Below are positions 8,113-59,715 of a stretch of DNA of 64,000 nucleotides, in pieces. Both the position numbers and the translations under genes were made by a program. Numbering within the stretch: position 1 is the stretch's first letter; each line of letters opens with the position of its first letter. The notes under the pieces are model-generated. The model ran no database searches, was not told the origin of the DNA, and saw only the letters and a program-made list of their open reading frames with translations. This DNA comes from an uncultured Clostridia bacterium (lineage in GTDB: Bacteria; Bacillota; Clostridia; Christensenellales; Borkfalkiaceae): positions 1 through 64,000 of the forward strand of contig CANQET010000009.1 of NCBI GenBank assembly GCA_947595585.1, read 5' to 3'.

Positions 8113-8129
8113 GGCGGAGGGAGGAGACC

Positions 8130-34194: not shown

Positions 34195-34203
34195 ATATCC
34201 TCC

Positions 34204-34235
34204 CAAAAAACACACCCGAGGAGCGCTCGGGTGCA
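34204..34235 (-). terminator. Intrinsic terminator after the Gfo/Idh gene
   Basis: GCACCCGAG/CTCGGGTG around a GCGCTC-like loop is followed by TTTTTT on the minus strand. The end of the T-run is within 10 bases of the next ATG, an attenuator-like placement. Confidence 0.8.
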
Positions 34236-34257
34236 AAAAGCCGATCCGAAGATCTGT

Positions 34258-36224: not shown

Positions 36225-36291
36225 AGACCAAAACCTTCCTTGTCTTTTTCCGTGAGCAGCCCCGCTTGGGGTACAGCGTATACATTCAGCC

Positions 36292-38211: not shown

Positions 38212-38243
38212 ATTCTGTCCCTCCCCGTATGAAAGGCAAAAGT

Positions 38244-42163: not shown

Positions 42164-42727
42164 TTATTGCACGCCGACCGTGAGCCTGAAGCTCGCCGAG
42201 TAGCCGTCGACCGAGACGGTGATCACGCATTCCCCTCTATCGACCGCCGTCACGCGGGCGAGAAGGCCCTGTGCCTCGACGGTGCCGATCGAGGGATCCG
42301 AGGTGGTCCACACGGGTTCGCCCTGCATCTCGCCGTCGAAGAAGGCGAGGACGGAGGCGGTGACGTTTTTCTTGATGATGAGCTTTCCGAGCGGCAGATT
42401 GATCTCGAGCGGGGAAGGCTCCACCGTGACGTCGCAATGGCCGATCTCGTCGTCGCCCTTGTAGAGGGTGATCGTCGCCGTGCCCACGCTCTTTGCCGTC
42501 AGCGTGACGGAGGCGCCCTCTTTCTTGATCGAGACGACCGACTTATCCGAGGTCTCCCAGTCGATGTCGTCGGCGTCGCTTTCCTTGACGTTGGCCTCGA
42601 GCACGTAGATCTGCCCGACGGTGAGCGTGAGCTCCTTATCCTTGAGGGGCGAGGTACACGCCGCCGCAAACAGGATGCAGACGAAGCAGACGACGGACGT
42701 CAAGAGCAGTGTGATCCGTTTCTTCAT
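42164..42727 (-). CDS. Lipoprotein with Ig-like (BIG2-type) domains
   Basis: 187 residues. The signal MKKRITLLLTSVVCFVCI is followed by lipobox AAAC (Cys24). Two beta-sandwich units follow: LTVGQIYVLEANV with the WETSDKSVVSIKK signature of BIG2 domains, and a second with VWTTSDPSIGTVEAQG. No catalytic motif. It starts with ATGA overlapping the GH31 stop and precedes the GDPD gene by 13 bases. It is probably a surface glycan-binding or scaffolding accessory of the locus. Confidence 0.85.
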   Translation of the reverse strand: MKKRITLLLTSVVCFVCILFAAACTSPLKDKELTLTVGQIYVLEANVKESDADDIDWETSDKSVVSIKKEGASVTLTAKSVGTATITLYKGDDEIGHCDVTVEPSPLEINLPLGKLIIKKNVTASVLAFFDGEMQGEPVWTTSDPSIGTVEAQGLLARVTAVDRGECVITVSVDGYSASFRLTVGVQ

Positions 42728-44724
42728 GATTCCCTCCTTTCCGTCTCTTTGGGGACGGTGCCGAAAAGTTTATCTTGTTCGATGCGAAGTACGTTGAACG
42801 TCGTATTCAACTTGTTCTTGCGGGTGAAGCAATCCCGCTGGTTCCAACCGAGCGTGATGGAATTTCCGAAGTCGTCCGAGAAATCCCAAGTGCCTTCGCC
42901 CGCCACGAGGAAGGTGAGCTCTTCGTATTTCGAGAAGTCGTTGCCGACGTCCGAACACAGCTTCCCGCCCTTGAGGTTGAGCGCCACGCAGGTGTTGTCG
43001 CGCATGAACACGGGGATGTGTTCGCGCTTTAAGGGGATCTCGTGCCAGCCGCCGCCGATGGCGTTGCCCGTGTAGAGATCGTACCATCTCCCGCGGGGGA
43101 GGTAGACCTTGCGGGTCGCGGCGAAGTCCTTGAGGACGGGGGCGATGAGGAGGGAAGAGCCGAGCATGAACTCGTCTTCCACCCCGTAGGCGCCTTCGTC
43201 TTCGGGGAACTCCATGACGAGATGCCGCATCATGGGGACGCCCGTCTTGGCGGAATCCCGCATCAAGCTGTAGAAATACGGGTTGAGATTGTAGTGCAGG
43301 AAGAATTGATCGCGGAGAAGATCCAAGAGCTTCTCGTTCTTATGGAAGGCGGCGATGTTCCACGGGCTGCGGTCGTTGATGGGCCATGCGCCCGTAAAAT
43401 CGCATCTGCCGTTGGAGACGGGATCGCTGTGCCACTGCATCACGGGCACGAAGGCCGCGGCTTGCACGGCACGCAGGTAGAGTTCTTCGGTGGGAAGATA
43501 TCCCGAGAAGCCCGCGATATCGAAGCCCCAGCAGTTGACGCCGCAGATGCTCGCCGAGAGCCCTGCCTTGATCACGGCCGCGAATTCCGCCCACGTGGAC
43601 TCCTGATCGCCCGCCCAGAGCACCGAGCTCGAGGGAAGCCGCGCGCCGCCCGCACGGGAGAACACGATCCCCTCTTCGCCGATGAAATCCGCAAAGGCCT
43701 TCACGTAGAGCTCGCTGTATCTACTCTGCCCTTCGAGGCCCGTCGTGCCGTCCGCAAATTTTACGGTGGGCTCGTGGATGAATTCGCCGCCGTCGGTCTT
43801 GAAGCCGTCGATGCCGATCTCCTTGAGATATTCGAAGCGCCCGAACCAGAACTTCGTGGCCTCCTCGCTCGTGAAATCGGGCACCATGCTGCCGATACAC
43901 CACGTGTGCGGGATCTCGTAGGGCGTGCCGTCCGCATTCATCACGCAGTAGCCCTTCTCTTTGACGTATTCGTCTTCCTTGAGGCAGAGCTCGGCGTTGC
44001 ACTTCGTCTGAAGATCTTCCCGCTGCGCATAGATGGGGACGACCCAAAGCAGCACTTTGATGCCGTCGGCATGGAGATCGGAGACGAGCTTTTTGGGATC
44101 GCTCCACGGCTCGGAGAAGGTCATCTCGCAGTAGGGCACCGAGAAGTCCTCCTTCTCGGGCACCGAACAGCCGTTGAAGAGGTAGTGCGTCGTGAGGTCG
44201 CTCCACGGCTCGATGACGAGCACGTTATGCGGGAAGTTGTGCTTCTTCGTGAGAAGCCGCTGTTCTTCGACCTCCGCCTGCGTCCGCCAACGGTTGCCGC
44301 TCATCCAAGCGCCGAGCGTCCACTTGGGGAAGATGCGCGGCCTTCCCACGAGTTTGCGGAATTCGCCGAGGATCTGCTTGGGCGTGCCCTCGAAGTACCA
44401 CACGTCCGCCTGTTCTCCGCGGCTGCCCGCGGGGAAGGTGATGGTCATCTCGCCGCGGGTGCGGAAGTCGAAGTCCACCTCGGCATAGGTATCCACAAAG
44501 ATGCCGAAGCCGTCGGGCGTCAGAAAGAAGGGAACGGAGTAGTAGGTGTACTCCCCTTGGCGGAAGCACTTCTCCCGCACGCACGCGCGTACGAAATTCC
44601 CCTTTTGGTTGACGCAGTCGAACTTCTCCCCGAAGCCGAACACCGCGCGGTACTCGCGGGACAGCGTGACGATAAACCCGCCGTCTTCGTTGCGCCTGAT
44701 GTGTTTCGTGTTGATTTTTTTCAT
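42724..44724 (-). CDS. GH31-family glycosidase
   Basis: 666 residues starting at 44724. A GTG nine bases earlier overlaps the DUF4127 stop and is an alternative start. There is no signal peptide. The barrel shows LGAWMSGNRWRTQAEV and VIEPWSDL, the nucleophile Asp in GIDGFKTDGGEF (about 310) and the acid/base Asp in VLWAGDQEST (about 371), followed by the C-terminal beta domains. The FKTDGGE form is closer to alpha-xylosidase/sulfoquinovosidase-like branches than to the WNDMNEP branch of the second GH31 at 61.6 kb. It acts in the cytoplasm on an alpha-linked oligosaccharide. Exact substrate unknown. Confidence 0.9.
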   Translation of the reverse strand: MKKINTKHIRRNEDGGFIVTLSREYRAVFGFGEKFDCVNQKGNFVRACVREKCFRQGEYTYYSVPFFLTPDGFGIFVDTYAEVDFDFRTRGEMTITFPAGSRGEQADVWYFEGTPKQILGEFRKLVGRPRIFPKWTLGAWMSGNRWRTQAEVEEQRLLTKKHNFPHNVLVIEPWSDLTTHYLFNGCSVPEKEDFSVPYCEMTFSEPWSDPKKLVSDLHADGIKVLLWVVPIYAQREDLQTKCNAELCLKEDEYVKEKGYCVMNADGTPYEIPHTWCIGSMVPDFTSEEATKFWFGRFEYLKEIGIDGFKTDGGEFIHEPTVKFADGTTGLEGQSRYSELYVKAFADFIGEEGIVFSRAGGARLPSSSVLWAGDQESTWAEFAAVIKAGLSASICGVNCWGFDIAGFSGYLPTEELYLRAVQAAAFVPVMQWHSDPVSNGRCDFTGAWPINDRSPWNIAAFHKNEKLLDLLRDQFFLHYNLNPYFYSLMRDSAKTGVPMMRHLVMEFPEDEGAYGVEDEFMLGSSLLIAPVLKDFAATRKVYLPRGRWYDLYTGNAIGGGWHEIPLKREHIPVFMRDNTCVALNLKGGKLCSDVGNDFSKYEELTFLVAGEGTWDFSDDFGNSITLGWNQRDCFTRKNKLNTTFNVLRIEQDKLFGTVPKETERRES

Positions 44725-44729
44725 ACAAT

Positions 44730-46238
44730 TCACCGTTTGAGCTTGAGGACGAAGTCCATCTCGAAGGTCCTGTTCCAAGGGCTCGAGACGTCGATATCCT
44801 CAACGAGCGCCGCAAGCGAGGGATAATTCTCCTCCATGTAGCGCATGAGTTCCCGCTTTGCCGCCGCAACGCACTTTCCGCGCTCGCCGTCGAGCTCGAA
44901 CACCGTGCATCCGTTCGCGGGAACGGCATGGATATCGATCCATGTGCGGGCGTGGGAACAATAGCCGACGTCGTCGTAATAGCGGTGCAGAAGGAAGTAG
45001 CGGTTGCCTTCTTCATCGTGTCCTGCAAGATAGAGGCAGGATTCGCAGATGACCGTTCCGAGCGTGTTGGAAGAAGTGTTCCAACCCGCATACGCATGGA
45101 TCGCAAGCAGGAGGCCTCTGTCGCGCAGAAGCTCCGCAAGCTCGAGATCGTTGTGGGTGGGATAGGCGACGTCCGCCACCGCCACCACTTTGCCGAGGGA
45201 GAGCGCATACTCGATCTCGTCGATATATTCGGCGAGACTGCGCTCGATGTCGTAGGCGACGATCCTCTCCTCGAAGGTGCCCTCGTAGAACATCTCGGAT
45301 CCGATGTTCACGGCGAGCAGGATATCCGCCTCGGGAAGGCTGTAGACCCTCCTGCACCCCGCCGCGCGGATCTGGCATTTTACGGTCGCATCGATGGAGC
45401 GGTCCTCGAAGGACGGGGTGACGAACTGCCCCTGCGCCGAAGCATAGTAGACGTAAACTTTCGGGGTCTCCCCGCGCATCTCGTTCACGGCACGGGCGAG
45501 CATCGTCATGCCCGTATCGTCGGCCGCGGGATAGATGGGGATCTCGAGCTGCAGCCCGTGTTCCTTCAGATAGCGGACGACGCGCTGCCGATCGAGCGAG
45601 GTGAAGCCGTAGGGGGCGCTGTCGTCCTGCGGGACGATAAACCCCTCGAAGATCCCCTCTTCCGCGAGCGCAAGGGTGTGGAAGAGCACGTTTAAGTTGA
45701 TCTCCCGCCGCCCCGTATAATCCGCGAGCGCCTCGGGCGGGATCAGCTTCTTTACGGCCGCATAGTCTTCCCGCTCCTCCTCGGTGAGGATGCCGAGCTG
45801 CTCCTTGTGGAGGTACCGCCCGTAGCGGTGGATCTCGGCGCCGCAGACGCCGTAGTACGACGGCTCCTCATCGGCATTGGTGAAGCGGGGGCAGCGCATC
45901 ACGGTCTGGAAGCCGTAGATGCGAAGATCGGGATGTGCCTTTTTGAGCGTCTTGAGAAGGTCCGCACGCGCGCAGAGCGCCGCTTCCGTCTCGAAATGCA
46001 GGCGGGAAGGGATGAGGCCGCCGTAGATGAGCGTATCCATCGAGACGATGAGGATATCCGCGCTTTCGGCATTTTCCTCGAGCCATGCGGCGAGTTTATC
46101 CCGGTCCGCAGGCGTCTTTTTTCGCCCCATGTACGCAAAAGGCGGCATAGTAAGCTCGAAATCCGCGCGGGGCATGATCGCGGGGAAGCGATAGTTGCAC
46201 GGGCGCTCGTCGAGCGGGAGCATGAGGATCTTCTTCAT
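44730..46238 (-). CDS. DUF4127 family protein
   Basis: 502 residues, cytoplasmic, recognised from the opening KKILMLPLDERPCNYRFP and from FQTVMRCPRFTNADEEPSYY, IVPQDDSAPYGFTS and the DDTGMTMLARAVNEM segment. DUF4127 proteins are found mainly in sugar-use loci of Firmicutes and in Paenibacillus-type gut bacteria. Their reaction is not established to my knowledge. The alternating strand/helix pattern suggests a TIM-barrel or deacetylase-like fold. It lies 1 base from the permease gene and 5 bases from GH31, within one transcript. Confidence 0.88.
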   Translation of the reverse strand: MKKILMLPLDERPCNYRFPAIMPRADFELTMPPFAYMGRKKTPADRDKLAAWLEENAESADILIVSMDTLIYGGLIPSRLHFETEAALCARADLLKTLKKAHPDLRIYGFQTVMRCPRFTNADEEPSYYGVCGAEIHRYGRYLHKEQLGILTEEEREDYAAVKKLIPPEALADYTGRREINLNVLFHTLALAEEGIFEGFIVPQDDSAPYGFTSLDRQRVVRYLKEHGLQLEIPIYPAADDTGMTMLARAVNEMRGETPKVYVYYASAQGQFVTPSFEDRSIDATVKCQIRAAGCRRVYSLPEADILLAVNIGSEMFYEGTFEERIVAYDIERSLAEYIDEIEYALSLGKVVAVADVAYPTHNDLELAELLRDRGLLLAIHAYAGWNTSSNTLGTVICESCLYLAGHDEEGNRYFLLHRYYDDVGYCSHARTWIDIHAVPANGCTVFELDGERGKCVAAAKRELMRYMEENYPSLAALVEDIDVSSPWNRTFEMDFVLKLKR

Positions 46239-46239
46239 A

Positions 46240-47385
46240 TCAACCTTTCACGGAACCGATCTGCAGCCCGCCCTTGATGTACCGCACGATGTAAGGATAC
46301 ATGCAGAGGATGGGCACGATGCTGAGGAGCATCATCGCGGCCTGTACGTTCTCGATATTGTATTGGAGCCAAGGTTCGTTCTTGGATTCCGCCTGACTGC
46401 TGTTCATGAAGTAGTAGATGTAGTAGGCAAGGGGCATCTGCGAGACGGCCGACTTGGAATCGTGGATGAAGAGCAAGGCCGAGCCGTAGCCGTTCCATGT
46501 GCCGACGATCGTGAAGAAGCAGCAGCTGCCGATGATGGGCAGGGACATCGGGACGATGATGCGGAAGAAGAGCTGCCATTCGCTCGCGCCGTCGAGCCGC
46601 GCCGCCTCTTCGATATCCTGCGAGATGCCCTCGAAGAAGGTCTTGAAGTAGAGCAGGTGCGTGACGTTGCTGATCGAGATGAGGACGACCGACCACAGCG
46701 AATCGATGAGGTGCAGGGCGTTCATGAGGAGGTAGATCGGCATGATGCCCGCCGAGAAGAGCATCGTGATGATGAAAAACATCATGATGCCGCTGCGGAA
46801 GGGACAATCGGCCTTGGAGAGCGGATAAGCCGCCATCGCCTCGACGAGGTTGGAGCCGATCGTGATGACGACCGTGATGAGCACGGAGTTGCCGAATGCC
46901 CGCCAGAAGTCCGCAGCAAACTTTCCGAGGAGCACATATTTGAATGCCTCGAGGGAGAACACGCGCGGCACGAGCACGATGTTCAGGTTGAACACGCCGT
47001 TGTTGAAGGCGAGCGAGAAGTACTGCAGAAGGGGCAATACGATGATGACGACGCCCGCGAGCAGCAGCACGACGTTGAGCACGGAGAGCGACGTATCGAG
47101 CAAGCTCTCATGAATGTGGTTGGGGTTGCGTTGGAAGAGCCCCTTGCGCTTTTCGGGCTCCGCTTTTCCCGCATCCATGCGTACCCAGATGGAGTTTCGG
47201 ATGGGGAAATACAGCCAAAGCACGAGCGCCGCGCCGCCGAACAGTAGCACGCCCAAATACCAGATCTTGCCGAACATCGCAAAGATGATGATCGAGACGG
47301 CGATGAGGAGCGCCGCGAGCAGCGGGATCACGATGCGGAACAGGAGCAGGAGTACGGAAAGCGTATTATTCTTTTTCTTCGTCAT
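46240..47385 (-). CDS. Carbohydrate ABC transporter permease, LplC type, with N-terminal extension
   Basis: 381 residues against the usual 275-300. The extra 90 residues at the N-terminus add two membrane helices (LLLLFRIVIPLLAALLIAVS and WYLGVLLFGGAALVLWLYF) and a basic linker. The permease core then has six helices, with the EAA loop EEAARLDGASEWQLFFRIIV at about 265. Such permeases import oligosaccharides delivered by a lipoprotein. No ABC ATPase gene is present in the locus, so a shared MsmK-like ATPase is likely. It is preceded by AAGGAGGGAAGTGCC. Confidence 0.92.
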   Translation of the reverse strand: MTKKKNNTLSVLLLLFRIVIPLLAALLIAVSIIIFAMFGKIWYLGVLLFGGAALVLWLYFPIRNSIWVRMDAGKAEPEKRKGLFQRNPNHIHESLLDTSLSVLNVVLLLAGVVIIVLPLLQYFSLAFNNGVFNLNIVLVPRVFSLEAFKYVLLGKFAADFWRAFGNSVLITVVITIGSNLVEAMAAYPLSKADCPFRSGIMMFFIITMLFSAGIMPIYLLMNALHLIDSLWSVVLISISNVTHLLYFKTFFEGISQDIEEAARLDGASEWQLFFRIIVPMSLPIIGSCCFFTIVGTWNGYGSALLFIHDSKSAVSQMPLAYYIYYFMNSSQAESKNEPWLQYNIENVQAAMMLLSIVPILCMYPYIVRYIKGGLQIGSVKG

Positions 47386-47398
47386 GGCACTTCCCTCC

Positions 47399-48430
47399 TT
47401 ACCAAAGCCCGCGCTTGAGCGTCTTCGTCGTGATCTTGTTGCCGACGAGCATCAGGATGAGCGCGATCGCACCGTTGACAACGCCGACGGCCGTCGCAAA
47501 CGGGATATCGTCTGCGCCGTGGGCGATCGAGATATTATAGATGTAGGTATCGAGCGTCATCTGCGAATTGATGAGGTCGGTATTGCCCTTCATCATCGTC
47601 CAGACCTGCTCGAAGCCGACCGCCATCATGCCCGAGATGTTGAGCACGAGCGTGAGCGCGATCGTGGGAAGGATGGAGGGAATGGTGAGGTACCACATCT
47701 TCTGCAGGCGGTTGGCCCCCTCGAGCGTGGCGGATTCATAATACGTCTTATCGATCGCCATGATCGCCGAGTAGTAGAGGATGCACCCCCACCCTGCGCC
47801 CTTCCACGCCGAGAGGAAGATGACGAGCGGCTTGAACCAAGCGTTGTCCGTCATGAGGTTGCCCGTAAATCTTCCGATGAGCCCGAAGCCCGAGGCGAAC
47901 ATGCCCGACCAAATACCGATGACGATCGCCCACGAGAGGAAGTTCGGGATGGTGATGATGATGAGGATCACCTTGGCGAGCGTCTGCGATTTGAGCTCGG
48001 AGAGCATCACGGCGATCACGATCGAGAGCGGGAAGCAGATCCCGAGACGGATGACGTTGATGATGAGCGTATTGACGACGGCATGCCCGATCTCGGCGTT
48101 GCGGAAGATCTCGGCGAATTTCATGACCGTCCATGGCTGGTTGATGACGTTCCACATGAGGTCGCCGACCGACGAATATTCCTTTTTGAACGCAAACAGG
48201 ATGCCGAGCATGGGAACATAAGAAAAGAACAGCGAGAAAAAGGCAGCAGGGATGATGAACCACAACACATAACGATATTTCTTTATGCGTTTCCACTGGT
48301 CTGCCCAAAATCCGCCGTCCTTTTGTTGCTTTGCCGTAGCCGTGACGGGTTCGGAAAGCGCCTCCTGAGGAGGGGAGAGCTCCCCTGCCGAGATCTCGGC
48401 AGGGTCGCTCAGTTGTTGCATTTCATTCAT
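47399..48430 (-). CDS. Sugar ABC transporter permease, LplB type
   Basis: 343 residues. A polar N-terminus of about 45 residues precedes six membrane helices starting at YRYVLWFIIPAAFFSLFFSY. The family motif FSYVPMLGILFAFKKEYSS is present, and the coupling EAA-type loop reads ESATLEGANRLQKMWYLTIP. It forms the heteromeric channel with the LplC-type permease downstream (13-base gap). The solute-binding protein gene lies 71 bases upstream. Confidence 0.93.
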   Translation of the reverse strand: MNEMQQLSDPAEISAGELSPPQEALSEPVTATAKQQKDGGFWADQWKRIKKYRYVLWFIIPAAFFSLFFSYVPMLGILFAFKKEYSSVGDLMWNVINQPWTVMKFAEIFRNAEIGHAVVNTLIINVIRLGICFPLSIVIAVMLSELKSQTLAKVILIIITIPNFLSWAIVIGIWSGMFASGFGLIGRFTGNLMTDNAWFKPLVIFLSAWKGAGWGCILYYSAIMAIDKTYYESATLEGANRLQKMWYLTIPSILPTIALTLVLNISGMMAVGFEQVWTMMKGNTDLINSQMTLDTYIYNISIAHGADDIPFATAVGVVNGAIALILMLVGNKITTKTLKRGLW

Positions 48431-48501: not shown

Positions 48502-50643
48502 TCAGACGCGCTGTCCGAGCTTGACTTCCTTATACCAATCGGTGAGCTCTTTCTTGATGGCGTCGCTCCAATACTTCTGCTGGATCGCGCCTTGGCGGGC
48601 GTTCTCGAGTGCGGTGAGGCAGCCGCCGTCCTTGGCGTCGATGGCCGAGCAGATGCCGTTCTTGAGCTGGGTACGGCAGTCGATGGAGTGCTTGGCCCAG
48701 AGCTTCAGAGGAGGCGCCATCGCCATCGGGTTCTGGATGAGCGTTTCATCGGTGGGGATGACGACGCGCCATGCGTTGAAGCCCGTCTCGCGGAGGTGGA
48801 AGAGGATGCGCGCCGAGACGGCGTTGGTGCCGTTGCAATACTGCGAGTTATCGGCGAGGACCTCTTCGTATCTCTTGGTGAGCTGCACCCACATCCCGGG
48901 TTTGGAATAGGTGACGACTTCCTGTGCGATATCCGATTCGTCTTCCGTGAACTCCGCCTTCGCCTTGCCGCACTGCGGGCAGACGTAGGTCTCGGGGAGC
49001 TGCGACCATTCCTCGTTGCCGTCGTATTGATAGCCGCACGGGCAGACGTGCCCGATGTGGAGCATGTTGCCGTAGGAAGGATCCTTATTGGTGTATTTGA
49101 TGTAGGAGAAGCTGTAGGGGCGGAGGAAGATCTTCTTCGCGCCGAGGTCCTCCCACCGGTTGTAGACCTCGCTCTCGATGAGCTCGCCGATCACGCTCTC
49201 ATCCGTGTAGCCCTTGGCCTTGTACTGTTCGACGTACGTCTCGTAGTCTTCCTTGGTGGGAGCACCGTCGGGGGCGTCGATCTCATACCAGTGCGTATCT
49301 TCGGGAAGCTTTGAAGGATCGCCGTTAAATTCTGCGTCGATCTGCTCCTTGGAGTAGCCGTTGCCGCCGTAGAAGTCGCCGAAGAATTCCATCTTCTTGG
49401 CGAGGAAATCGATGACGTAGAGCGCCTTATCCTGCATGTAGGCGGGGATACAGGTATAATACGAGACGCCCGCGGGGCCGCCCTCGATACGGGCCTTCTC
49501 CTGATCTTTGCAGGTGTGTGTCTGCCCGTCGTCGCCCACGAAGCTGTAGCCGTCGCCGCGGACGCGGAGCTGCCAGCCGATCAGATTCTCCTTGATCCAT
49601 TCGCGGCGTTCGCTTTCGGTCTCGCCGATCGCCGTAGGGTCTGCGCCGAAGTGGGAGATCATGCCGTCCTTGGTCTCGGAGTCGGTCGTGAAGATCGCAT
49701 CGAGCAGACCGTTGACGTTCCAATAGGGCTGGAAAACGCACGAATACTTCTCCTGCGCGAACTTCGAATAGAGGCTTCCTGCGCTGCTCTCTTTCTGCCA
49801 ATCTTCATAGAGGATGCCCTTCTTGCGGAGCATGTTCATATACATCGCGTAGTCCGTCGTGTTGTCGCTGTAGACATACTGCATGATGTCGCCGTTGTCA
49901 TCCACATAGAAGAATAGCGGCACTTCGAAGGCGCCCTTGAGCTGGGTGACTTCGACGGAGTTGCTGCCGTTGAGGCCGAAGGCGTGATATTTTTTGTCTG
50001 CGCCGAATCTCTCCTGGCACTTCTCGAAGGCCCACGTGACTTCGGTGAGCGTTTCGGGAAGCCCGCTCACATTGTCGGGGAATTGGTTCTTGAACCCGAT
50101 GAGCTCGAGATGGCGGGTATTCCAGATCATCGCCGAGTCGGTCATGGAGACGTAGCCGAAATCGGGAATGCCGTAGATGTGCTTCTGCCCCGCGTCGTCG
50201 ACGTACGTCACCGCATCCCAGCCGTAGTCCATGAGGTCGATGAGCTGATAGAGCGTTCTGCCCGCCGTCGTGTTGTGGAGAAGATCGGTAAGGTCGCACA
50301 GCTCCGCCTTCTCGAGGTGGGCGTGATATTCAGCCTCGGTGAGCTTCATGAAGTGGAATTGCGCATGCGTATTCAGATAGTTGGTGACGTCGGCATCCGC
50401 ATTCGACCCGAGTTCGGTATATTCGATCGTATACCCCGTGGTGTTCTTGATGATCTTGGCCGTATCGTCTTTGCCGAAGGCGCCGATGCCCGTCTCGGGG
50501 TAGAGGCCCTTGAGGGTGATCGGCTGGGAAAGATCGACATCCCAGTTGACATCGACGGTATATAATTTGCCGCACCCGGCAAATGCTGCCATACCCGAAA
50601 GCAGCATGACGCTTGCAACCGCTACGGATACGAACTTTTTCAT
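48502..50643 (-). CDS. Extracellular solute-binding lipoprotein with rubredoxin-like knuckle
   Basis: 713 residues, longer than the usual 420-560. Lipoprotein signal MKKFVSVAVASVMLLSGM with lipobox FAGC. The body matches family 1 sugar-binding proteins (ADVTNYLNTHAQFHF, IPDFGYVSMTDSAMIWNTR, FAQEKYSCVFQPYWNVNG). Unusually, residues about 530-566 read CPCGYQYD then WSQLPETYVCPQCGKAKAEF, very close to the rubredoxin pattern, with the first knuckle one residue short (CxC rather than CxxC). It could bind Fe or Zn as a structural insert. It is the binding protein for the two permeases downstream. The ribosome site is AGGGAGGAAAC. Confidence 0.85.
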   Translation of the reverse strand: MKKFVSVAVASVMLLSGMAAFAGCGKLYTVDVNWDVDLSQPITLKGLYPETGIGAFGKDDTAKIIKNTTGYTIEYTELGSNADADVTNYLNTHAQFHFMKLTEAEYHAHLEKAELCDLTDLLHNTTAGRTLYQLIDLMDYGWDAVTYVDDAGQKHIYGIPDFGYVSMTDSAMIWNTRHLELIGFKNQFPDNVSGLPETLTEVTWAFEKCQERFGADKKYHAFGLNGSNSVEVTQLKGAFEVPLFFYVDDNGDIMQYVYSDNTTDYAMYMNMLRKKGILYEDWQKESSAGSLYSKFAQEKYSCVFQPYWNVNGLLDAIFTTDSETKDGMISHFGADPTAIGETESERREWIKENLIGWQLRVRGDGYSFVGDDGQTHTCKDQEKARIEGGPAGVSYYTCIPAYMQDKALYVIDFLAKKMEFFGDFYGGNGYSKEQIDAEFNGDPSKLPEDTHWYEIDAPDGAPTKEDYETYVEQYKAKGYTDESVIGELIESEVYNRWEDLGAKKIFLRPYSFSYIKYTNKDPSYGNMLHIGHVCPCGYQYDGNEEWSQLPETYVCPQCGKAKAEFTEDESDIAQEVVTYSKPGMWVQLTKRYEEVLADNSQYCNGTNAVSARILFHLRETGFNAWRVVIPTDETLIQNPMAMAPPLKLWAKHSIDCRTQLKNGICSAIDAKDGGCLTALENARQGAIQQKYWSDAIKKELTDWYKEVKLGQRV

Positions 50644-50940
50644 AGTCTTGTTTCCTCCCTGTAAATTGTATCCCCCGCTTCCCGTCTCCCCTTCTCGCGA
50701 AGGGGAGTGGGAGGTATCGGTCCTGCCCCGCGGGGGGAGCGAAGCAGGCGTCTTTGGTATTTCTTTGGTAACGGACTCGCTTGATTTTCAGTACCCCCTC
50801 CCCCACCGTACCCTCCCCCGAGCGGGGGAAGGGTAGGGTAAAGGTATGGAGGAATGGAACCTTCCTTGGGGGGAAGGAAATCGGCAATAGAATGCGGTGT
50901 TTCCCTTCCCGCGGCTTGCGGGAAGGGAATGCGTTTTGGG
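50644..50940 (-). other. Intergenic stretch with two GC hairpins
   Basis: Almost 300 bases between the large lipoprotein and the solute-binding gene, without an ORF of its own. TTCCCTTCCCGC/GCGGGAAGGGAA (50901-50929) is a 12-bp perfect stem just after the upstream stop, and CCCTCCCCC/GGGGGAAGGG lies near 50812-50834. Neither has a strong T-run. They may stabilise or partly terminate the upstream message, giving unequal expression. No confident promoter was seen. Confidence 0.5.
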
Positions 50941-53900
50941 TTATGCGTTTACGGGAGCGGAGATCGCTGCCTCAATGCCCATCATGTTGTCTTCGGGCGC
51001 GGAATCCGAATTATATCTCAGGTTCGTTGCGCCATATTTCTCAACGAGATAGGTGATGACCTGCTTTTGGAAATCTACGAATTTGCCAGAAATGCCGAAG
51101 TATACCTGATAGCCCTTTCCGTGCCATGCGGTGACGTCGTTAATAAAGGCACCATCGCTGGTATACGCCCACGCAAATCCGCCGTTCTTGAATACGTTCT
51201 TCCCGACAAGATTGCTGTTGACCATCTTTACTTCTTCAGCGGTCAGAACATGGTTGGGATCGGCTGCGAGCGCCTTTGCGACCGTCATGATGGTTACGAT
51301 GTAGCGCACATCTTCCTTGATCGTATCGTCGTTCAGCTCTGCGAGCTTCGCGGAGATAGCGGTGGGAACGGTGACGCCCATCATTTCAAGCTGATAGAGG
51401 AAGTAGTATGCACGGAAGGACGTATGAGCCGCAATGCCTTTATCGAAATCAAAGATAATCCCTGCTGCTTTCACCGTGTTTGCAACGACAATGAGCTCGC
51501 CGAGCACTTCGCCTACGGTGTAGGTTTGAGCGGTCGCCTCTGTCCTGTCGGTGGCCTTGACGGTAAGTTCGAGCTTATCGCCAATCGCGTCAAACTCCTC
51601 CGTGAACGTCTTCCAAGCCGTCCAATTCGCGCTGCTGGCTACAGTCGCTTTCGCCTGCTCGCCTGCGTCGAGCTTGTTGTAGGCCTCGAAGATCGTCTTA
51701 AAGAGCGTGATTTCGCTGAAGAGGTAGCCCTTCTTGTCTGCACCGAGTGTCGTCCAACCCTTGTAGGTAAATTTCGACATGTTGTCGGTGACATCGGAAA
51801 GCCTGGCAAACTGCGTGTTGACGTCCTCTGCGGTCTCGATGGGATCTTCCACGACGGGAACTTCGATGGTGGCATCGGTGACGCCCCAACCGTTTGCGTT
51901 GATCGTGTAACCGTTGTTCTTAAGAAGTTCGGCAACGATCTCGAAGTACTGATATGCCTTGTAAGGTTCGGGCTTCTCGGCTTCGGTCATGATCGTGCCG
52001 CCCGCATATTCCGTCATCACAGCGGCAACTCCGCCGATCCAAGCCTCGAACTTATTGCCGTTGCCGTTCCATTGTGCATCGAGGAACGAGGAGGAATAGC
52101 TGTTGGTCCAATACTTGTTGAGGTACTTAAGGTCGGCTTCGGAGAGCTCGGAGATCTTGGTGAAGTTGCCATCGTGAATGTGCATTGCGACCTTCACGGT
52201 GCCGACGATGGGAAGCCATGCGTCATCGTAGAAGCTCTGGAACTTGATGTTCGTGAGCAAGGTCTCTACGAAGGCAGGAAGCACAAAGCCTTCCGCATTT
52301 TCCTTGAGTGCATCATAGAGCAAGCAGAGGTAAGGAGCCGGGTACATCGCACCGCTGAAATCCACAATGCCGGTACCGGTACGGTTGGGATCGTTGTATT
52401 CGCCGAAGCTGCCGCCCGTCTGGATCCTGTAGGCCCAATAGAGGAAGTGATCGAAGAGTTCTTGGCCGTTGTAGGTCTTCTTCGTTTCCATATCCTTCGG
52501 GTTCGCATAGAGCTCGACGGAGACGCTGTTGAGCGCCGCGTAGGTTTCGGTGATATCCTTTGCTTCGGTGAGCGCCATCCAAGCCTCGAAGGAGGTCTTG
52601 TTCACGATGCGGAGCACTTCTTCCTGCTTGGTTTCATCGAGGGCGTCGTACTTCGCCTTGACGTCTTCCTTGAACTTCTGAAGTTCGGAATAGAGATAAC
52701 CCTTCACATCCGAGCTATCCTGTGTGGCCCAACCCTTGTACTCATACTTGGGCATGATCGAGAAAGGCTTGAAGGCATTCATGACGGCCTTCGCCTCGGC
52801 GGAAGCGCTCTCTCTCGGGTCGGCCGCAGCCTCGACTTGCGAGGTGTAGCCGTAGCCGAGTTCATCGAGCTTCGCTTCGGGCGCATACAGCGCTACGATA
52901 TCCGTGATGTATGCCAAGTTAGCCTTGAGGTTGGCTGCATCCGGGAGACCGAAGTAAATCTCGTAGTAGGTGTTGCCGTTACGAAGGTCATAGGGCGACT
53001 GCTTGGTGTTCCAGTTGAAGCCGCCTTCACGGAACGTGAAGTTCTGCATGTTGGTGTTGATGACGTTTGCAAGCTCTTCGTCAAGCCAAACGAGCTCACC
53101 TTGCTGTTGCAAATTGTAGATCCTCGCGACCTGCGTCATCACGGGATAGATGTATTCGTCGAAGTCCAAAACAAAGTTCTTGGAGCGTTCGGTCGAAGTG
53201 ATCGCAGCGAAGAACACGTCGGTGAAGATCTCGGGGATCTCGACATTCCCTTCTTCCATCTTCTTCATGAGGAAGAGGAGATGGAAGCTGTCTTGATAGC
53301 ACGCCGTGCTGTCCGAGTCGATGGTGCCCTTCCCGTCCGAGTGACCGACGTACGTCGTCGTGTGGATCTTGTTCGCGAGCTCGAAGAGCTTCACGAGCGC
53401 GTCGGTGCCATTATAGGTCACCGTGCCGTTCATCGCGATGTTGCCGAGGGTATAGCTCTTTTCGGTGTAGGTCGCGTTGTCGAGATACGCCTTGATGCCG
53501 TTGTAGGCCTTCGACCAGCGATCGAACTCCGTCTGCCCGCCGCTCCAACGGCGGATGACGTTGGTCTTATCGAGGGGATCGGTGAGGGCGTTGTACTCTT
53601 TGAGAACTTCACCGAATGCCTGGGCTTCGCTCCAGAGATAGCCCTTGGGATCGGCAGTGCCATCGGGCACCGTCCAGCCCTTGTAGCCGTAATTCTCGAA
53701 GAGGGAGAACTTCGTAAGTTTCTCAAGGACGGCTTCCCCTGCGGGGGTCAGCTTGATGGACGACTCATAGACCTGCTTCGCGGAGAGATAGTTCGTCCAA
53801 TCGAGGAGAAGACGATACTGCTGAAGGATCCCCGTGCTGCCGGTGTGGGCTTCGTCTTTGCCGTACCAAGCCGTGACTTCGTCGTAGGCCGCCTGATACT

Positions 53901-55446
53901 GCGGGACGGTGTCGACGGTCATCTTGGCGAGGCTGTCGACTTTATCCTGGTACTCCTTGAGCTTGCCGCCGATCTCGTTGTCGGAGACGGGGCTTGCGTC
54001 GAAGCGGAAGTTGAAGACGTCGGTGCCGTCCACGGCCTCGTACGACGTGCACGCGTAATTCATAAGGTACGTGTAGTCGACGAGTGCGCTGGCGCCCTTG
54101 TCGTTGAGCGTGACTTCGTCGTTCGCCATGAGGGCGTCGTGCAACTGGCCGCGGTATTCATCGTCGATGGTCGCGATCGAATAGTCGAGGTTGCTGCACT
54201 CTTCCTCGGTGGGAACATAGAACTCAGCCTTCGTGACCGTGAAGCCTTCGAACTTGGCGCCGTTGAAGTAGTCGACGTTCTCGACGGCCGGCTTGCTCAC
54301 GACCTTATTCTTGATATCGAGACCGGCGATGAAGACGATCGCGTTCTCGGCCTTGACCTGATAGCCGGGGAAGAGCCCTTCGACGGTCTCGTCGTTGATG
54401 ACGATCCTGTGGGTCTTCTTGGCGTTGCCGTCGAACGTGAAATCGATGTAGTCTTCCCAATACTCTTCATCGGCCTGCTCATCGTAGCAGCGAACGGTAC
54501 GGGCCTGCATATCCACCGTCTTTACGTTGGGGGTGAAGTAGCCGCCGTCCTTATCGTTGTGCCACTTGGAAGTCATCACGGGCTTCTCTTTGCGGTCGAC
54601 ATGATAGACGATATCGGAGAAGGAGTCGTCGCGCGAGGTGCCGCGGAAGGTGTACCAATCGCCGGTACGCGTATCGCAAGCAAGGCCCGTCGCGATAACA
54701 TAGTAATCCTGCCAAGCGTAGACGCCGAAGTAGGCATAGACGCCTTCGTCGACTTCTTCATCCTCGCCGATGATGTACTTGCCGTCGTACATGCCCTTAT
54801 AGGGAGGAGTGATCTTGACGTTGGAGAGGTCGATCGTGTAGTTGAGCCCGTTGACGCCGGCCTTTCTCGTGGGGAAGGTGATGACGCCTGCATCCATGGG
54901 CTTGGAGAATTCCCATGTGGGAGGCAGGGTCGTCGATGCGGGGATCTCTTCGCCATAGACGTCGAGAAGACCATAGCCGTTCCACGTCTGCATCGGCACG
55001 GCGCCCATCGAACCCGTCTGGTGTGCGATGATCTTCTGATTCTGAAGGATCTTTACGCCTTCGGTGGCATCCCAGCAGTTGAATGCCGTGAGTTCGGTGC
55101 CGTTTTCATAGTACCAGAAGCAGTCGGAGTTGCCCGCTCCGAATCCCTTGCGGTTTTCGAAGAGGTGCTTCGTGCCGCCCTTCTTCGTCACGTAGCCACC
55201 TACGGCACCGGCCGCCGTGGCTTCGTCTTCCGTAAACTCGAGGTCCGCGTTTACGGTAGCATTGATGGCGTCTGCGATCGTCTTGTAGGCGCCGACAAAA
55301 TTCTTATTATAGTCGTACGCCTCATAGGCATCCGCAGCCCGAGGGTCGTCGCGGCGCGTTGCCTTGCCGCCTCCGCACGCCACCAGACCCGCAACCGATG
55401 TTGCCACCATCGCGGAGCCGAGTAATAGCGCTGCCAGCTTTTTCAT
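50941..55446 (-). CDS. Very large lipoprotein with three internal repeats
   Basis: 1501 residues. The start at 55446 follows AGGAGGAAAGTT. Signal MKKLAALLLGSAMVATSVAG with lipobox LVAC. Residues about 25-400 are beta-rich and aromatic, resembling a carbohydrate-binding or sandwich domain (WNGYGLLDVYGEEIP, YAYFGVYAWQDYYVIATG). From about 540 onward a unit of roughly 320 residues occurs three times, each opening YKGW...KGYL.SE...F (about 585, 904 and 1227). Two copies close with GGF-W and YxIYFG/YQVYFG text. I recognise no family for the repeat. It is transcribed first, ahead of the transporter, so it is probably the locus's main surface glycan-capturing protein. Confidence 0.85.
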   Translation of the reverse strand: MKKLAALLLGSAMVATSVAGLVACGGGKATRRDDPRAADAYEAYDYNKNFVGAYKTIADAINATVNADLEFTEDEATAAGAVGGYVTKKGGTKHLFENRKGFGAGNSDCFWYYENGTELTAFNCWDATEGVKILQNQKIIAHQTGSMGAVPMQTWNGYGLLDVYGEEIPASTTLPPTWEFSKPMDAGVITFPTRKAGVNGLNYTIDLSNVKITPPYKGMYDGKYIIGEDEEVDEGVYAYFGVYAWQDYYVIATGLACDTRTGDWYTFRGTSRDDSFSDIVYHVDRKEKPVMTSKWHNDKDGGYFTPNVKTVDMQARTVRCYDEQADEEYWEDYIDFTFDGNAKKTHRIVINDETVEGLFPGYQVKAENAIVFIAGLDIKNKVVSKPAVENVDYFNGAKFEGFTVTKAEFYVPTEEECSNLDYSIATIDDEYRGQLHDALMANDEVTLNDKGASALVDYTYLMNYACTSYEAVDGTDVFNFRFDASPVSDNEIGGKLKEYQDKVDSLAKMTVDTVPQYQAAYDEVTAWYGKDEAHTGSTGILQQYRLLLDWTNYLSAKQVYESSIKLTPAGEAVLEKLTKFSLFENYGYKGWTVPDGTADPKGYLWSEAQAFGEVLKEYNALTDPLDKTNVIRRWSGGQTEFDRWSKAYNGIKAYLDNATYTEKSYTLGNIAMNGTVTYNGTDALVKLFELANKIHTTTYVGHSDGKGTIDSDSTACYQDSFHLLFLMKKMEEGNVEIPEIFTDVFFAAITSTERSKNFVLDFDEYIYPVMTQVARIYNLQQQGELVWLDEELANVINTNMQNFTFREGGFNWNTKQSPYDLRNGNTYYEIYFGLPDAANLKANLAYITDIVALYAPEAKLDELGYGYTSQVEAAADPRESASAEAKAVMNAFKPFSIMPKYEYKGWATQDSSDVKGYLYSELQKFKEDVKAKYDALDETKQEEVLRIVNKTSFEAWMALTEAKDITETYAALNSVSVELYANPKDMETKKTYNGQELFDHFLYWAYRIQTGGSFGEYNDPNRTGTGIVDFSGAMYPAPYLCLLYDALKENAEGFVLPAFVETLLTNIKFQSFYDDAWLPIVGTVKVAMHIHDGNFTKISELSEADLKYLNKYWTNSYSSSFLDAQWNGNGNKFEAWIGGVAAVMTEYAGGTIMTEAEKPEPYKAYQYFEIVAELLKNNGYTINANGWGVTDATIEVPVVEDPIETAEDVNTQFARLSDVTDNMSKFTYKGWTTLGADKKGYLFSEITLFKTIFEAYNKLDAGEQAKATVASSANWTAWKTFTEEFDAIGDKLELTVKATDRTEATAQTYTVGEVLGELIVVANTVKAAGIIFDFDKGIAAHTSFRAYYFLYQLEMMGVTVPTAISAKLAELNDDTIKEDVRYIVTIMTVAKALAADPNHVLTAEEVKMVNSNLVGKNVFKNGGFAWAYTSDGAFINDVTAWHGKGYQVYFGISGKFVDFQKQVITYLVEKYGATNLRYNSDSAPEDNMMGIEAAISAPVNA

Positions 55447-55502
55447 AACTTTCCTCCTACTATCCCCCGTTCATAATGACAGAAGATAATTTTTATAGTC
55501 TC

Positions 55503-55531
55503 ATTGTACGCTTCCTTTTATATTTTGTCAA
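55503..55531 (-). promoter_or_regulatory. Promoter of the large glycan operon
   Basis: TTGACA and TACAAT with a 17-base spacer, leader about 50 bases. Bases 55535-55815 upstream are AT-rich with A/T runs and hold no gene or clear operator. Confidence 0.8.
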
Positions 55532-55814
55532 TACCTTTTGAAAAAAATTTTTATTTTTAGCGAAATTTTTTTCTTTTTTCTTTTCACCGCCGCGAAAGCA
55601 ATTCGCAAACGTTGAAAAAAATTTCAATCGACACAAAAAATATGTTGAGTTTTCTCCCCTCTCGCGCGGAAGCTCCGTCCCCGCTTGGATCGAAGCTCCC
55701 TCTCTCTCCCCTTTTGAAAGATTTTTTTCTTTTCTCCACCCCATGCGGTTTTGTCCATAAATAAGGATGTGTTTTGATATAGAAGGATACGCTTGGGGAT
55801 AGAAAAATCCGCTT

Positions 55815-56779
55815 GGGATGAGGTCGCTCATGATACGCCCCGTCGTCTCCCGCCCACCCCCCTACCCCCCTCCAATGGAGGGGGTGTGTGGTCTGTTCTC
55901 CGATAGAGGGGCGCAGAATAAGCGATATGGGTACCACGCCTACGTCATTTCGAACGTAGTGAGAAATCTCAAAGTCGAGATTCCTCGGGCTACGTCCTCG
56001 GAATGACGTACTGATTGGCTCCCTCGTACTCTGCCCACCCCCCTACCCCCACCGTGGCAGAGCAAAAACCACCACACCGTGGGAAAACAAAAAATACCCC
56101 CGCCGTGGGAGAACAATAAACTACCCCCTCCGTGGGAGGGGGATCAAGGGGGTGGGGCGGCAAAAAAGCAACTACGAAGTCCGTCCCCTTGCTTCCCCTC
56201 TCAGGGGAAGTACCCGCGTGAGCGAGGGATGGGGTTTCCAAAACCCCTCAGTCACGGCTGCGCCGCGACAGCTCCCCTACGAGGGGAGCCAAGGGACGCA
56301 TGGGATGGACCGCGTCGTACTCTGCCCACCCCCCTACCCCCCCCCGCGGGAGGGGGTATCGTTTTAATAAACGATACGGGTACCCCGCCTGCGTCATTTC
56401 GCCCCGACCGCAGCTTCTATTTGTTCTACTAAGGTCGGCACGAGCCGTTCGGCGAAGTAACGTAGTGAGAAATCTCAAAGTCGAGATTCCTCACCCCTAA
56501 AGGGGTTACTTCGCGCTACGCGCTCGTGCCGTGCTTCGATAAACAATAGAAGCCTCGCACGGGGCGGAATGACGTACTGATGAACCCCGTTGGTTACCAT
56601 GCATGCCCATCATGAGCGACAACGGGTACCGTCAAACTGCAAAGTTGCAAGTAAGACAAGCAATAGCGAGGCTTTTCGCAGGGAGCGTACTTAAGACGTA
56701 CGTGACCAAGAAAAACGTAGCATGACGCAGTATTACGCAGCAAATTTGCAGTTCGTAAGTTCGAAGCGAGTAGTATTGC
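55815..56779. repeat. Intergenic repeat mosaic, block 5
   Basis: No genes. It contains palindromic CGTCATT units (about 55938-56011 and 56391-56576), CCCCCTCC hairpin units (about 55848-55890, 56034-56160 and 56325-56362), a multi-hairpin unit (56183-56296), and the long CCGTCAAACTGC unit from about 56624 that runs into the tsf terminator. Confidence 0.8.
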
Positions 56780-56847
56780 GTAGCTTATCCGCAGTTCGTA
56801 AATACGAAGTTCAAACAAAAAACCGCACATGGGGTGCGGTTTTTTGT
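56780..56847 (-). terminator. Terminator of rpsB-tsf carried by a dispersed repeat
   Basis: AAAAAACCGCAC/GTGCGGTTTTTT forms the hairpin at 56817-56846, 20 bases beyond the tsf stop. The flank TTATCCGCAGTTCGTAAATA then CGAAGTTCAAAC matches the flanks of the terminators at 27.5 and 59.7 kb. Confidence 0.85.
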
Positions 56848-56865
56848 ATATATTGTTGTAAAAAC

Positions 56866-57777
56866 TTATTTCTTCATGGCTTCGACTTGCTTCGCCACTT
56901 CCTCGGAGAGATCCTCGGATTTCTTCTCGATGCCCTCGCCCATGACGTAGAACATAAACGCCTTGAGCGTGACGGGCACACCCGCCTCTTTGGCGCCCTG
57001 CGCGATGAGCTGCCCCACCGTCACGCTGTCGTCTTTGACGAACTTCTGCGCGAGCAGGCAGTTATCTTCGTAGAACTTCTTGAGCTTGCCTTCGACGATG
57101 CGGGCCGCGATCGCTTCGGGCTTGCCCTCGTTCATGACTTCCTGCAAGAGGATGGCGCGCTCCTTCGCAAGCGTCTCTGCGGGGACGTCCCCCGCTTCTT
57201 TATAGGTGGGCTTGGAGAAGGCCGTATGCAGTGCGACGTTGTGCGCAAGCGCCTTGGTCACAGGGGTCTCGGGGCAATCGAAGTCGAGCATGACGCCCAT
57301 CGTGCCGCCCATGTGGATATAGGTCTCGATGAAGCCCTCGGTATCGTATACGGTGAAGCGGCGCACGGAAATCTTCTCCCCGATGACGCCCGTCTGCTCG
57401 GAGATGAACGTCTCCACCGTCTTGCCGCCCATATCCGAAGCGAGGAGTGCGGCGACGTCTGCAGGCGCAACTTTTGCGATCTGTTTTGCGATGGCGCCCA
57501 CGACCTCGTGGAACTTCTCCCCTTTGGCGACGAAATCGCTCTCGCAGTTGACTTCGACGAGCACGCCGCGCTTGCCTTCGACGTAGGCATACACGATGCC
57601 CTCGGCCGCGACTTTGCCCTGACGCTTCTGCGCTTTGGCGATGCCGCGCTCGCGGAGGAGTTCGCCCGCCTTCTCGAAGTCGCCGTCCGCATCGACGAGC
57701 GCCTTCTTGCAATCCAACATACCCGCCCCCGTCTGTTCGCGGAGACGCATGACGTCCTTTGCCGTAAACTCAGCCAT
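56866..57777 (-). CDS. tsf: Translation elongation factor Ts
   Basis: 303 residues. EF-Ts recharges EF-Tu with GTP by expelling GDP. The N-terminal UBA-like part shows EQTGAGMLDCKKALVDADGD, followed by the EF-Tu-contacting core with EVNCESDFVAKGEKF and a C-terminal dimer-type subdomain. The ATG overlaps the rpsB stop (TAATG). Usual order rpsB-tsf. Confidence 0.97.
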   Translation of the reverse strand: MAEFTAKDVMRLREQTGAGMLDCKKALVDADGDFEKAGELLRERGIAKAQKRQGKVAAEGIVYAYVEGKRGVLVEVNCESDFVAKGEKFHEVVGAIAKQIAKVAPADVAALLASDMGGKTVETFISEQTGVIGEKISVRRFTVYDTEGFIETYIHMGGTMGVMLDFDCPETPVTKALAHNVALHTAFSKPTYKEAGDVPAETLAKERAILLQEVMNEGKPEAIAARIVEGKLKKFYEDNCLLAQKFVKDDSVTVGQLIAQGAKEAGVPVTLKAFMFYVMGEGIEKKSEDLSEEVAKQVEAMKK

Positions 57778-58532
57778 TATTCTTCCTCCTTGTTTTCGAC
57801 CTCGGTCTCTTCTGCGGCGGGAGCCTCGTCCTGTTCGGGAACGGGCGTCACGCCTTCCGTCGCCTCGATGACGGCATTCGCCATGACGGACGAGATGAGC
57901 TTGATCGCGCGGATCGCGTCGTCGTTGCCCGGGATCACATAGTCGATGAGATCGGGATCGCAGTTGGTATCGGTGATGGCGACGATCGGCACGTGCATCT
58001 TACGCGCTTCGGCGACGGCGATATCTTCGTTGTGCGGGTCGACGACGAACATCACGCCCGGCATACCGCGCATCTGCTTGATGCCGCCGAGGTTTTCCTG
58101 AAGTTTCGCCATCTCCTTCTTGAGCCCCAAAACTTCCTTCTTGGGGAGAAGATCGAACTCGCCGCTCTGCTCCATGCGCTCGAGTTTTTCGAGATAATCG
58201 ATACGGGAGCGGATCGTCTTGAAGTTGGTGAGCGTGCCGCCCAGCCAACGGGAATTGACGTAGAATTGTCCGCAGCGCTCCGCCTCTTCCTTGATGGCGT
58301 CCTGCGCCTGCTTCTTCGTCCCGACGAAGAGCACGCTCTTGCCCTGCTTCACCGATTCGACGACGAAGGTATACGCATCTTCGATGAGCTTTGCCGTCTG
58401 CTCGAGGTCGATGATGTGGATATCATGACGGGCGGCGAAGATGTACTTCTTCATCTTGGGGTTCCACTTTCTCGTCTGGTGCCCGAAATGGACGCCGGCT
58501 TCGAGAAGCTGCTTCATGGTAATAACTGCCAT
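57777..58532 (-). CDS. rpsB: 30S ribosomal protein S2
   Basis: 251 residues with [19 protein letters not shown] near the N-terminus, [17 protein letters not shown] and a [20 protein letters not shown] segment. An acidic tail ([11 protein letters not shown]) ends the protein. First gene of the rpsB-tsf unit, with GGAGGACCT before the ATG. The leader is about 120 bases and could hold an autoregulatory structure; none was modelled. Confidence 0.98.
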
Positions 58533-58661
58533 AGGTCCTCCGTTTCTCCTCTTTCCGCTGCCTTTTTTCCGCTCCTAACGCCGCATGAGAAAAATTTACG
58601 GAGCACGGAGAGCGGGACAAGCGAAAATGTGGATTTGCCTGCGATGGCCGCAGACTTGAAT

Positions 58662-58690
58662 ATTATAGCACGCGTACGCGCAAAAAGCAA
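58662..58690 (-). promoter_or_regulatory. Promoter of rpsB-tsf
   Basis: TTGCTT and TATAAT with a 17-base spacer, leader about 120 bases. Confidence 0.75.
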
Positions 58691-58794
58691 CTCGTTTTGC
58701 CGCCCCTTTCCGAAATTTTTTCCGCGAAAGGGAAAAGAATGAAAAATGAAGAATGGAGAATGAAGAATTGAGAATTGAGAATTGAGAATTGGAG

Positions 58795-59684
58795 AAGCAA
58801 TACCCCCTCCGTGGTTTATCCCAAGCACTACCCCCTCCGTGGTTTATCCCAAGCACTACCCCCTCCGTCGTCCATTCCGAACAATACCCCCTCCGTGGGA
58901 GGGGGACTAAGGGGGTGGGGCGGCAAAAAAGCAACTACGAAGTCCGTCCTCATCCCGAACGAAGCGGAGCGGAGTGAGCGGATCTTAAAGATACACTCGC
59001 TACGCTACTTCGCCGAACGGCTCGTGCCGTGCTTCGATAAACAATAGAAACCTCGCACGGGGCGGTATGAGGTCGCTTTGAATAAGCCCCTACGACGTCC
59101 GACCTCTTGCTGCCCCTTTCAGGGGAAGTACCTGCGTCAGCAGGGGAAGGGGTTTTTGAAACCCCTCAGCCGCGTCTTACGCCGCGACAGCTCCCCTGCG
59201 AGGGGAGCCAAGGGGTCGCTCTGAATACGCCCCCGCCGTCTCCTGCCCACCCCCCTACCCCCCTCCGATGGAGGGGGTATGTGGTCTGTTCTCCAATGGA
59301 GGGGGTACATACGTCATTTCGAACGTAGTGAGAAATCTCAAGTAAGATTAAGACTAAGGCGATGTTTCGACTACGCTCAACATGACGTTATTAGAATGAG
59401 ATTCCTCGGCTATGCCTCGGAATGACGTAGTCGGGTACCGTCAAACTGCGGAGAAGCAAGCAAGACAAGCAATAGCGAGGCTTTTCGCAGGGAGTGTACT
59501 AAATCGTACACGACCACCCCGCGCGCATTTCTAATTCTCTAAGCGCGGCACGAGCCCCCGAGGGCGAAGTAGTAAAACGCAGCATGACGAAGTATTACGC
59601 AGCAAATTTGCAGTTCGTAAGTTCGAAGCGAGTAGTGTTGCGCAGCTTATCCGCAGTTCGCAAGTACGAAGTCCAAACAAGCAT
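58795..59684. repeat. Intergenic repeat mosaic, block 6
   Basis: No genes. It opens with three or four tandem copies of ACCCCCTCCGTGGTTTATCC (58799-58880), then a GGAGCGGAGTGAGCGGATC unit (about 58945-59078), a multi-hairpin unit (59101-59217), CCCCCTCC units (59245-59305), a palindromic unit (59310-59428) and the most complete CCGTCAAACTGCGGAG unit (59433-59684). Confidence 0.8.
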
Positions 59685-59715
59685 GAAAAAACCGCACTTG
59701 GGGTGCGGTTTTTTA
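59685..59715 (-). terminator. Terminator of the RpiR-type gene, repeat-borne
   Basis: AAAAAACCGCAC/GTGCGGTTTTTT, directly beyond the regulator's stop codon. It is the third copy of the terminator-carrying repeat. Confidence 0.85.

Follow-up and report, generated by a model that had tools for sequence, protein, structure and literature searches.

A lipoprotein with three copies of an undescribed helical domain heads a sugar ABC importer operon in uncultured gut Clostridia and is a candidate glycan-capture protein

In Bacteroidota, SusC and SusD constitute a well-known pair for grasping glycans. SusD and the SusE-SusF proteins resemble the lipoprotein described here in proposed role, namely catching glycan for an adjoining importer, but the importer in the present case is an ABC system, with a solute-binding protein and two permeases, and not SusC. 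Pfam scans revealed no SusD family member, and no SusD chain is present among the 50 Foldseek matches listed (best E 0.62). The repeat lipoprotein is not a SusD member and, with no match in sequence or fold, the term 'SusD-like' can denote role alone; the comparison with SusD drawn in a preliminary description of this DNA is thus retained only as a proposal about role.

The closest described analogue is Sas20 of Ruminococcus bromii, a starch-binding surface protein of a Gram-positive gut bacterium that is multi-domain, flexible and little predictable from sequence (PMC9112005). Domain 1 of Sas20, which belongs to the amylosome, is CBM26-like and carries a 3-helix bundle, so that both proteins present a beta-sandwich followed by a helical bundle (PMC9112005). 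In the protein studied here, by contrast, the sandwich extends over ~450 residues, the helical unit of ~300 residues is repeated, and the gene belongs to an operon for ABC import. Sas20 is absent from the listed PDB profile and Foldseek matches of the repeat and the N-terminal domain. At the level of the locus, the available excerpts on the beta-mannan system of Roseburia intestinalis describe capture through CBM27 and CBM23 modules on a GH26 enzyme and through a binding protein (PMC6385246). According to the same excerpts, that Gram-positive locus shares GH26, GH36, an epimerase, a solute-binding protein and two permeases with the present one, but they describe no giant repeat lipoprotein, and the operon here adds GH31, GDPD, DUF4127 and NanE to what they list (PMC6385246). 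Surface glycan-capture proteins of sugar-uptake operons are a known kind; the repeat domain that builds this one is undescribed. We give an even chance to the reading in which this lipoprotein, anchored in the membrane and multivalent, captures glycans for a sugar ABC importer of the Gram-positive type.

The gene was found in what we call the window, that is, the whole 64,000-nucleotide stretch of an uncultured Clostridia contig that was analyzed. The gene, its signals and the regions of its product are the following.

55503 to 55531, minus strand: promoter-like element TTGACA-17-TACAAT, assigned by consensus match (11 of 12 positions)
55453 to 55458, minus strand: ribosome-binding site AGGAGG, 6 nt before the ATG, read from the sequence
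50941 to 55446, minus strand: repeat-lipoprotein gene (1501 aa, ATG start), identified by its open reading frame, purifying selection and whole-length relatives
55375 to 55446, minus strand: signal peptide and lipobox LVAC (residues 21-24, including Cys24), based on the conservation of Cys24
53995 to 55329, minus strand: N-terminal beta-sandwich domain, residues ~40-484 (~450 residues), the most conserved part
53725 to 53994, minus strand: helical connector, residues 485-574
52816 to 53724, minus strand: repeat 1, residues ~575-877
51850 to 52779, minus strand: repeat 2, residues 890-1199
50944 to 51816, minus strand: repeat 3, residues 1211-1501

A comparison of the minus-strand gene with its 87%-identical relative at locus L025 gives a dN of 0.07 and a dS of 0.41. 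A plus-strand ORF of 1523 aa over the same DNA was rejected, as dN/dS places the coding signal on the minus strand; this second frame is a consequence of GC-rich third codon positions, which reach 75% GC in the lipoprotein gene. The predicted promoter is situated 57-85 bases upstream of the gene, which is the first of its operon, as the preliminary description had proposed. The N-terminus combines a signal peptide with a lipobox of the type [LVI][ASTVI][GAS]C whose cysteine, Cys24, is kept in 14/14 intact N-domain sequences. Judging by these sequence features, the lipid is probably attached at Cys24, and the protein is likely exposed at the cell surface.

The three repeats are diverged, with ~20% identity over an aligned unit of ~300 residues, and a BLASTP self-comparison of the lipoprotein detected no self-match. 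Phmmer, on the other hand, scores repeat against repeat at 23.5-31.1 bits, compared with at most 8.0 bits for shuffled sequences and values below zero for the repeats against the N-domain. The open reading frame, the LVAC lipobox and these scores bear out the earlier view of a 1501-residue lipoprotein with three repeat copies, and the YKGW...KGYL.SE signature ascribed to the unit occurs in all three. The downstream YFG-type strand ascribed to it is confined to repeats 1 and 3, and the model of repeat 1, nearly all alpha-helical, does not show it as a strand. The connector (residues 485-574) was considered as a partial repeat and rejected, hhalign yielding no match.

A profile of the unit collects 42 copies in 15 proteins with E values of 1e-50 to 1e-95, and an AlphaFold2 model computed from the alignment of these 42 sequences (pLDDT 93.1, pTM 0.91) displays a helical domain with one small beta-hairpin. 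Searches of Pfam, NCBIfam, PHROGs and PDB sequences, with single sequences as well as profiles, returned no credible match for the repeat. A Foldseek search with the repeat model likewise found no match in the PDB (best E 0.62, probability 0.08) or among the BFVD viral models (best E 0.71), so that no known enzyme or binding family emerged from any of these sequence and fold libraries and the unit can still be called unrecognized. Weak Pfam matches of the repeat (Imm7, DUF2922, Vip3A_N and others) involve 1-2 members each at E values of at least 0.004, are inconsistent, and were rejected; PDB profile matches of the repeat and the N-domain (E 0.09 and worse) were dismissed as chance-level. Neither the repeats nor the N-domain match a CBM model in Pfam at E <= 0.1. 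On this basis the repeat domain is undescribed and, as far as its predicted model can be compared with the PDB and BFVD, possibly represents a new fold. The best-conserved positions of the unit are G16, W17, G28, Y29, L47, W70, N223 and W238, and no acidic or His column of the repeat alignment is conserved above 70%. Conservation of Gly, Trp, Tyr, Leu and Asn in this pattern points to binding more than to catalysis, but the aromatic residues could also be kept for core packing.

Clear relatives of the protein were found in 11 genomes from a sample of 201 of the same family, a twelfth match being marginal, and at two further loci in Clostridia MAGs from rabbit gut. Outside this family of uncultured Clostridia only the signal peptide was matched, and plasmid and phage-family (PHROGs) searches gave no match; an origin from a phage, a plasmid or the wider Bacillota was therefore rejected. 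The confinement of the relatives to one family indicates a lineage-restricted protein. At L031 (G180:C74), a second copy in genome G180 has one repeat and an extra N-terminal part of ~250 residues, in which pairs of cysteines and collagen-like repeats of the sequence GQDGKDG occur. In a distantly related operon of G108 (L082:3-8442), an in-frame stop at 582-584 interrupts the N-domain gene. Downstream of it lie several paralogous lipoproteins of ~450-516 aa, which a profile comparison hints are distant N-domain relatives, and then a solute-binding protein and the same type of importer.

Across the relatives, the 42-repeat profile counts between 1 and 4 units per protein. In the repeat tree, repeats 1, 2 and 3 are positionally orthologous among close species, while genome G112 shows an A-B-A-B block duplication and locus L026 a recent duplication of its third and fourth repeats. 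A recent event is visible within repeat 3 of the lipoprotein in the window:

51068 to 51735, minus strand: recombination tract inside repeat 3, with ~5 mismatches over 668 bp relative to L025, between flanks of 86-90% identity

The stretches of the gene flanking this tract differ from L025 by 10-15%, and the same comparison yields a dS of 0.08 for repeat 3 and of 0.72 for the N-domain. The near-identity of the tract and the low dS of repeat 3 imply a recent recombination confined to one unit.

These dynamics also bear on the main rival explanation, according to which the repeats form a stalk or scaffold of helical spacers that lift or organize other parts, such as enzymes or cell-wall contacts, with sugar binding confined to the N-domain or absent from the protein altogether. 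Stalks of variable length behave in the way that the copy number of 1-4 and the recombining units do, and the repeats drift to ~20% identity while the N-domains keep 35-84%. As the membrane-proximal N-domain is better conserved than the repeats, the latter might be mere spacers. However, stalks are usually built from smaller units, and the unit here is a large domain of ~300 residues with conserved Trp, Tyr and Asn positions; moreover, the two-type A-B-A-B array of G112 suggests that the units have distinct roles. Overall, we regard a stalk or scaffold as unlikely, though it is the first competitor of the capture reading, followed by an enzyme and then by an adhesin.

The possibility of an enzyme, in which the beta-sandwich would be a glycosidase or peptidase and the repeats accessory, arises from the N-domain. 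Its model is a beta-sandwich (pLDDT 83), and its relatives share 35-84% identity with the N-domain of the window. Foldseek aligns the model with neprosin and the YncM/CPAVM1 proteases (E 4.4e-5 to 4e-4) and with a GH16 glucanase (E 6.5e-4), all at low TM-scores of 0.2-0.26 on the query; the neprosin alignment, in particular, combines an E of 4e-5 and a probability of 1.0 with TM-scores of 0.26/0.41 and an rmsd of 14.8. The modelled beta-sandwich of the N-domain resembles the folds of neprosin, the YncM-type peptidases and the GH16 glucanases, but no sequence relationship to them was detected. In neprosin, catalysis depends on the glutamate pair E188/E297 (PMC9343461). That pair is not conserved here, E416 being the only invariant glutamate among 15 N-domains; the ExDxE motif of GH16 is not among the invariant columns either, and no Pfam enzyme matches the N-domain. 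A non-catalytic beta-sandwich is the more likely assignment, and we consider it quite improbable that the lipoprotein is an enzyme.

The glycan-capture reading draws further on the operon, whose genes downstream of the lipoprotein gene are listed below.

48502 to 50643, minus strand: solute-binding lipoprotein of 713 aa, the partner gene
47399 to 48430, minus strand: ABC permease 1
46240 to 47385, minus strand: ABC permease 2
44730 to 46238, minus strand: DUF4127 protein
42724 to 44778, minus strand: GH31 glycosidase
42164 to 42727, minus strand: small Big_2 (Ig-like) lipoprotein
40390 to 42150, minus strand: secreted glycerophosphodiesterase-like (GDPD) protein
38244 to 40337, minus strand: GH26-like lipoprotein
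36292 to 38292, minus strand: second GH26-like protein, start uncertain
31211 to 36497, minus strand: continuation of the operon with NanE, Gfo/Idh, aldose epimerase and GH36 genes

With a co-located regulator, an ABC sugar importer and glycoside hydrolases, the locus displays the composition of a Gram-positive polysaccharide utilisation operon. The order of lipoprotein, binding protein and two permeases recurs at the loci with enough flanking DNA, and the downstream DUF4127, GH31, Big_2, GDPD and GH26 genes recur in most of them, with some losses, e.g. at L161 and L162. Within the genus, the lipoprotein is present in 21 of 103 genomes, and a close solute-binding protein accompanies it in 21/21; in four further genomes the binding protein is present without the lipoprotein, on short fragments of contigs in one of them and in a distant form in the other three. 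This association has a Fisher p of 3e-18 with the four binding-protein-only genomes counted, a value that treats species as independent, which they are not, and is uncorrected for shared ancestry. In the family sample, the lipoprotein and the binding protein are present in the same 11 genomes. The binding-protein profile has one weak match in the PDB (E 0.006), CbpB, a sugar-binding protein. Least probable among the rivals is an adhesin or structural protein of the cell envelope, an operon passenger with which the cell would adhere to food particles, to mucus or to host cells and which would not serve uptake. The giant size of this surface lipoprotein, its repeats and its lineage-specific variation would fit such a role, but across the genus sample the linkage to the importer has no exception, every genome with the gene also having the importer's binding protein.

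Several other features of the locus and its surroundings were noted. Residues 532-566 of the solute-binding protein contain a rubredoxin-like cysteine knuckle (CPCG...CPQCG) in the window and L025 that is absent in the other 13 relatives compared. In the window, rpsB and tsf separate the rpiR regulator from the lipoprotein gene (55578-59704), with composite direct repeats (families D1-D14) on both sides; since rpiR directly adjoins the lipoprotein gene in L025, this placement suggests an insertion or rearrangement mediated by the repeats. Two DUF4127 proteins occur in or near the same operon (44730-46238 of the window; L027:8326-9834), a family with no described function and named in no paper found in the literature searched. 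In the sister operons L159 and L160 (genomes G111 and G964), a distant solute-binding protein is preceded by other large surface proteins (an Ig-like protein of 883 aa, a GHL10-type protein of 1072 aa and a phosphodiester glycosidase), and large surface proteins ahead of this type of importer may be common in the lineage as a whole. Elsewhere in the window, positions 8109-12092 of the plus strand encode a 1327-aa protein, unusually long for a pilin, in which a type IV pilin-like methylation motif (GFTLMEALIVVAIISILLGLAVP) at the start is followed by GLUG-like repeats.

The region between the lipoprotein gene and that of the binding protein contains two stem-loops.

50901 to 50929, minus strand: 13-bp stem-loop just past the lipoprotein stop codon, with no U-run on the coding strand
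50800 to 50844, minus strand: further strong stem-loop (-32 kcal/mol), ahead of the solute-binding protein gene

As no U-run follows it, the first stem is not terminator-like. In 17 of the 18 loci tested, the hairpin after the lipoprotein stop codon (with a median of -27 kcal/mol) is stronger than each of its 60 shuffles, a comparison in which the shuffles preserve base composition only and not dinucleotides, in intergenic regions rich in GC-rich palindromes; its sequence varies between species. The next strongest hairpin, of -22.8 kcal/mol, follows the binding-protein gene, and a weak one of -11.5 kcal/mol follows permease 1. In E. coli, the part of the message that encodes MalE or another binding protein of an ABC operon is stabilized by structures downstream of the gene (PMC5927463). 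By analogy, the strong hairpin after the lipoprotein gene suggests that more lipoprotein than permease may be produced, as would be expected of a capture protein.

In the glycan-capture reading, the lipid at Cys24 would hold the beta-sandwich domain near the membrane, with an arm of one to four helical units extending from it. The helical units, the sandwich or both would bind the target polysaccharide or its fragments and retain them on the cell surface, within reach of the GH26-like and GDPD enzymes that are secreted; the oligosaccharides released would pass to the neighbouring solute-binding protein and on to the permeases. Sugar binding by the lipoprotein and the hand-over to the binding protein are thus anticipated. 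The operon context, the anchoring, the variation in copy number and the hairpins after the gene all fit the capture role proposed in the preliminary description, but the repeats could instead form the stalk or scaffold considered above.

As to the glycan, the GH26-like, GH36, GH31 and epimerase genes recall beta-galactomannan loci such as that of Roseburia, as portrayed in the excerpts cited (PMC6385246), and a similar substrate may be supposed by analogy. A glycan containing HexNAc and phosphodiesters, such as a teichoic acid or a capsule, would also be compatible with the locus, given a NanE without a sialidase match, the secreted GDPD and the phosphodiester glycosidases of the distant sister operons. 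Sialic acid was rejected as a substrate: no sialidase was matched, and a NanA-type match appeared only below the cut-off, for which reason NanE more likely reflects the use of ManNAc or HexNAc.

In its boldest form, the proposal is that the ~300-residue helical unit is both a new fold and a new glycan-capture module, displayed as a membrane array of 1-4 copies in uncultured gut Clostridia, and would represent an independently evolved Gram-positive counterpart of SusD that works with ABC importers; we regard this as possible but doubtful. How Gram-positive gut bacteria with small genomes keep large glycans beside their ABC importers is less clear than the way in which SusC/SusD operate, and a repeat lipoprotein that accompanies one importer provides a concrete candidate for this glycan holding.
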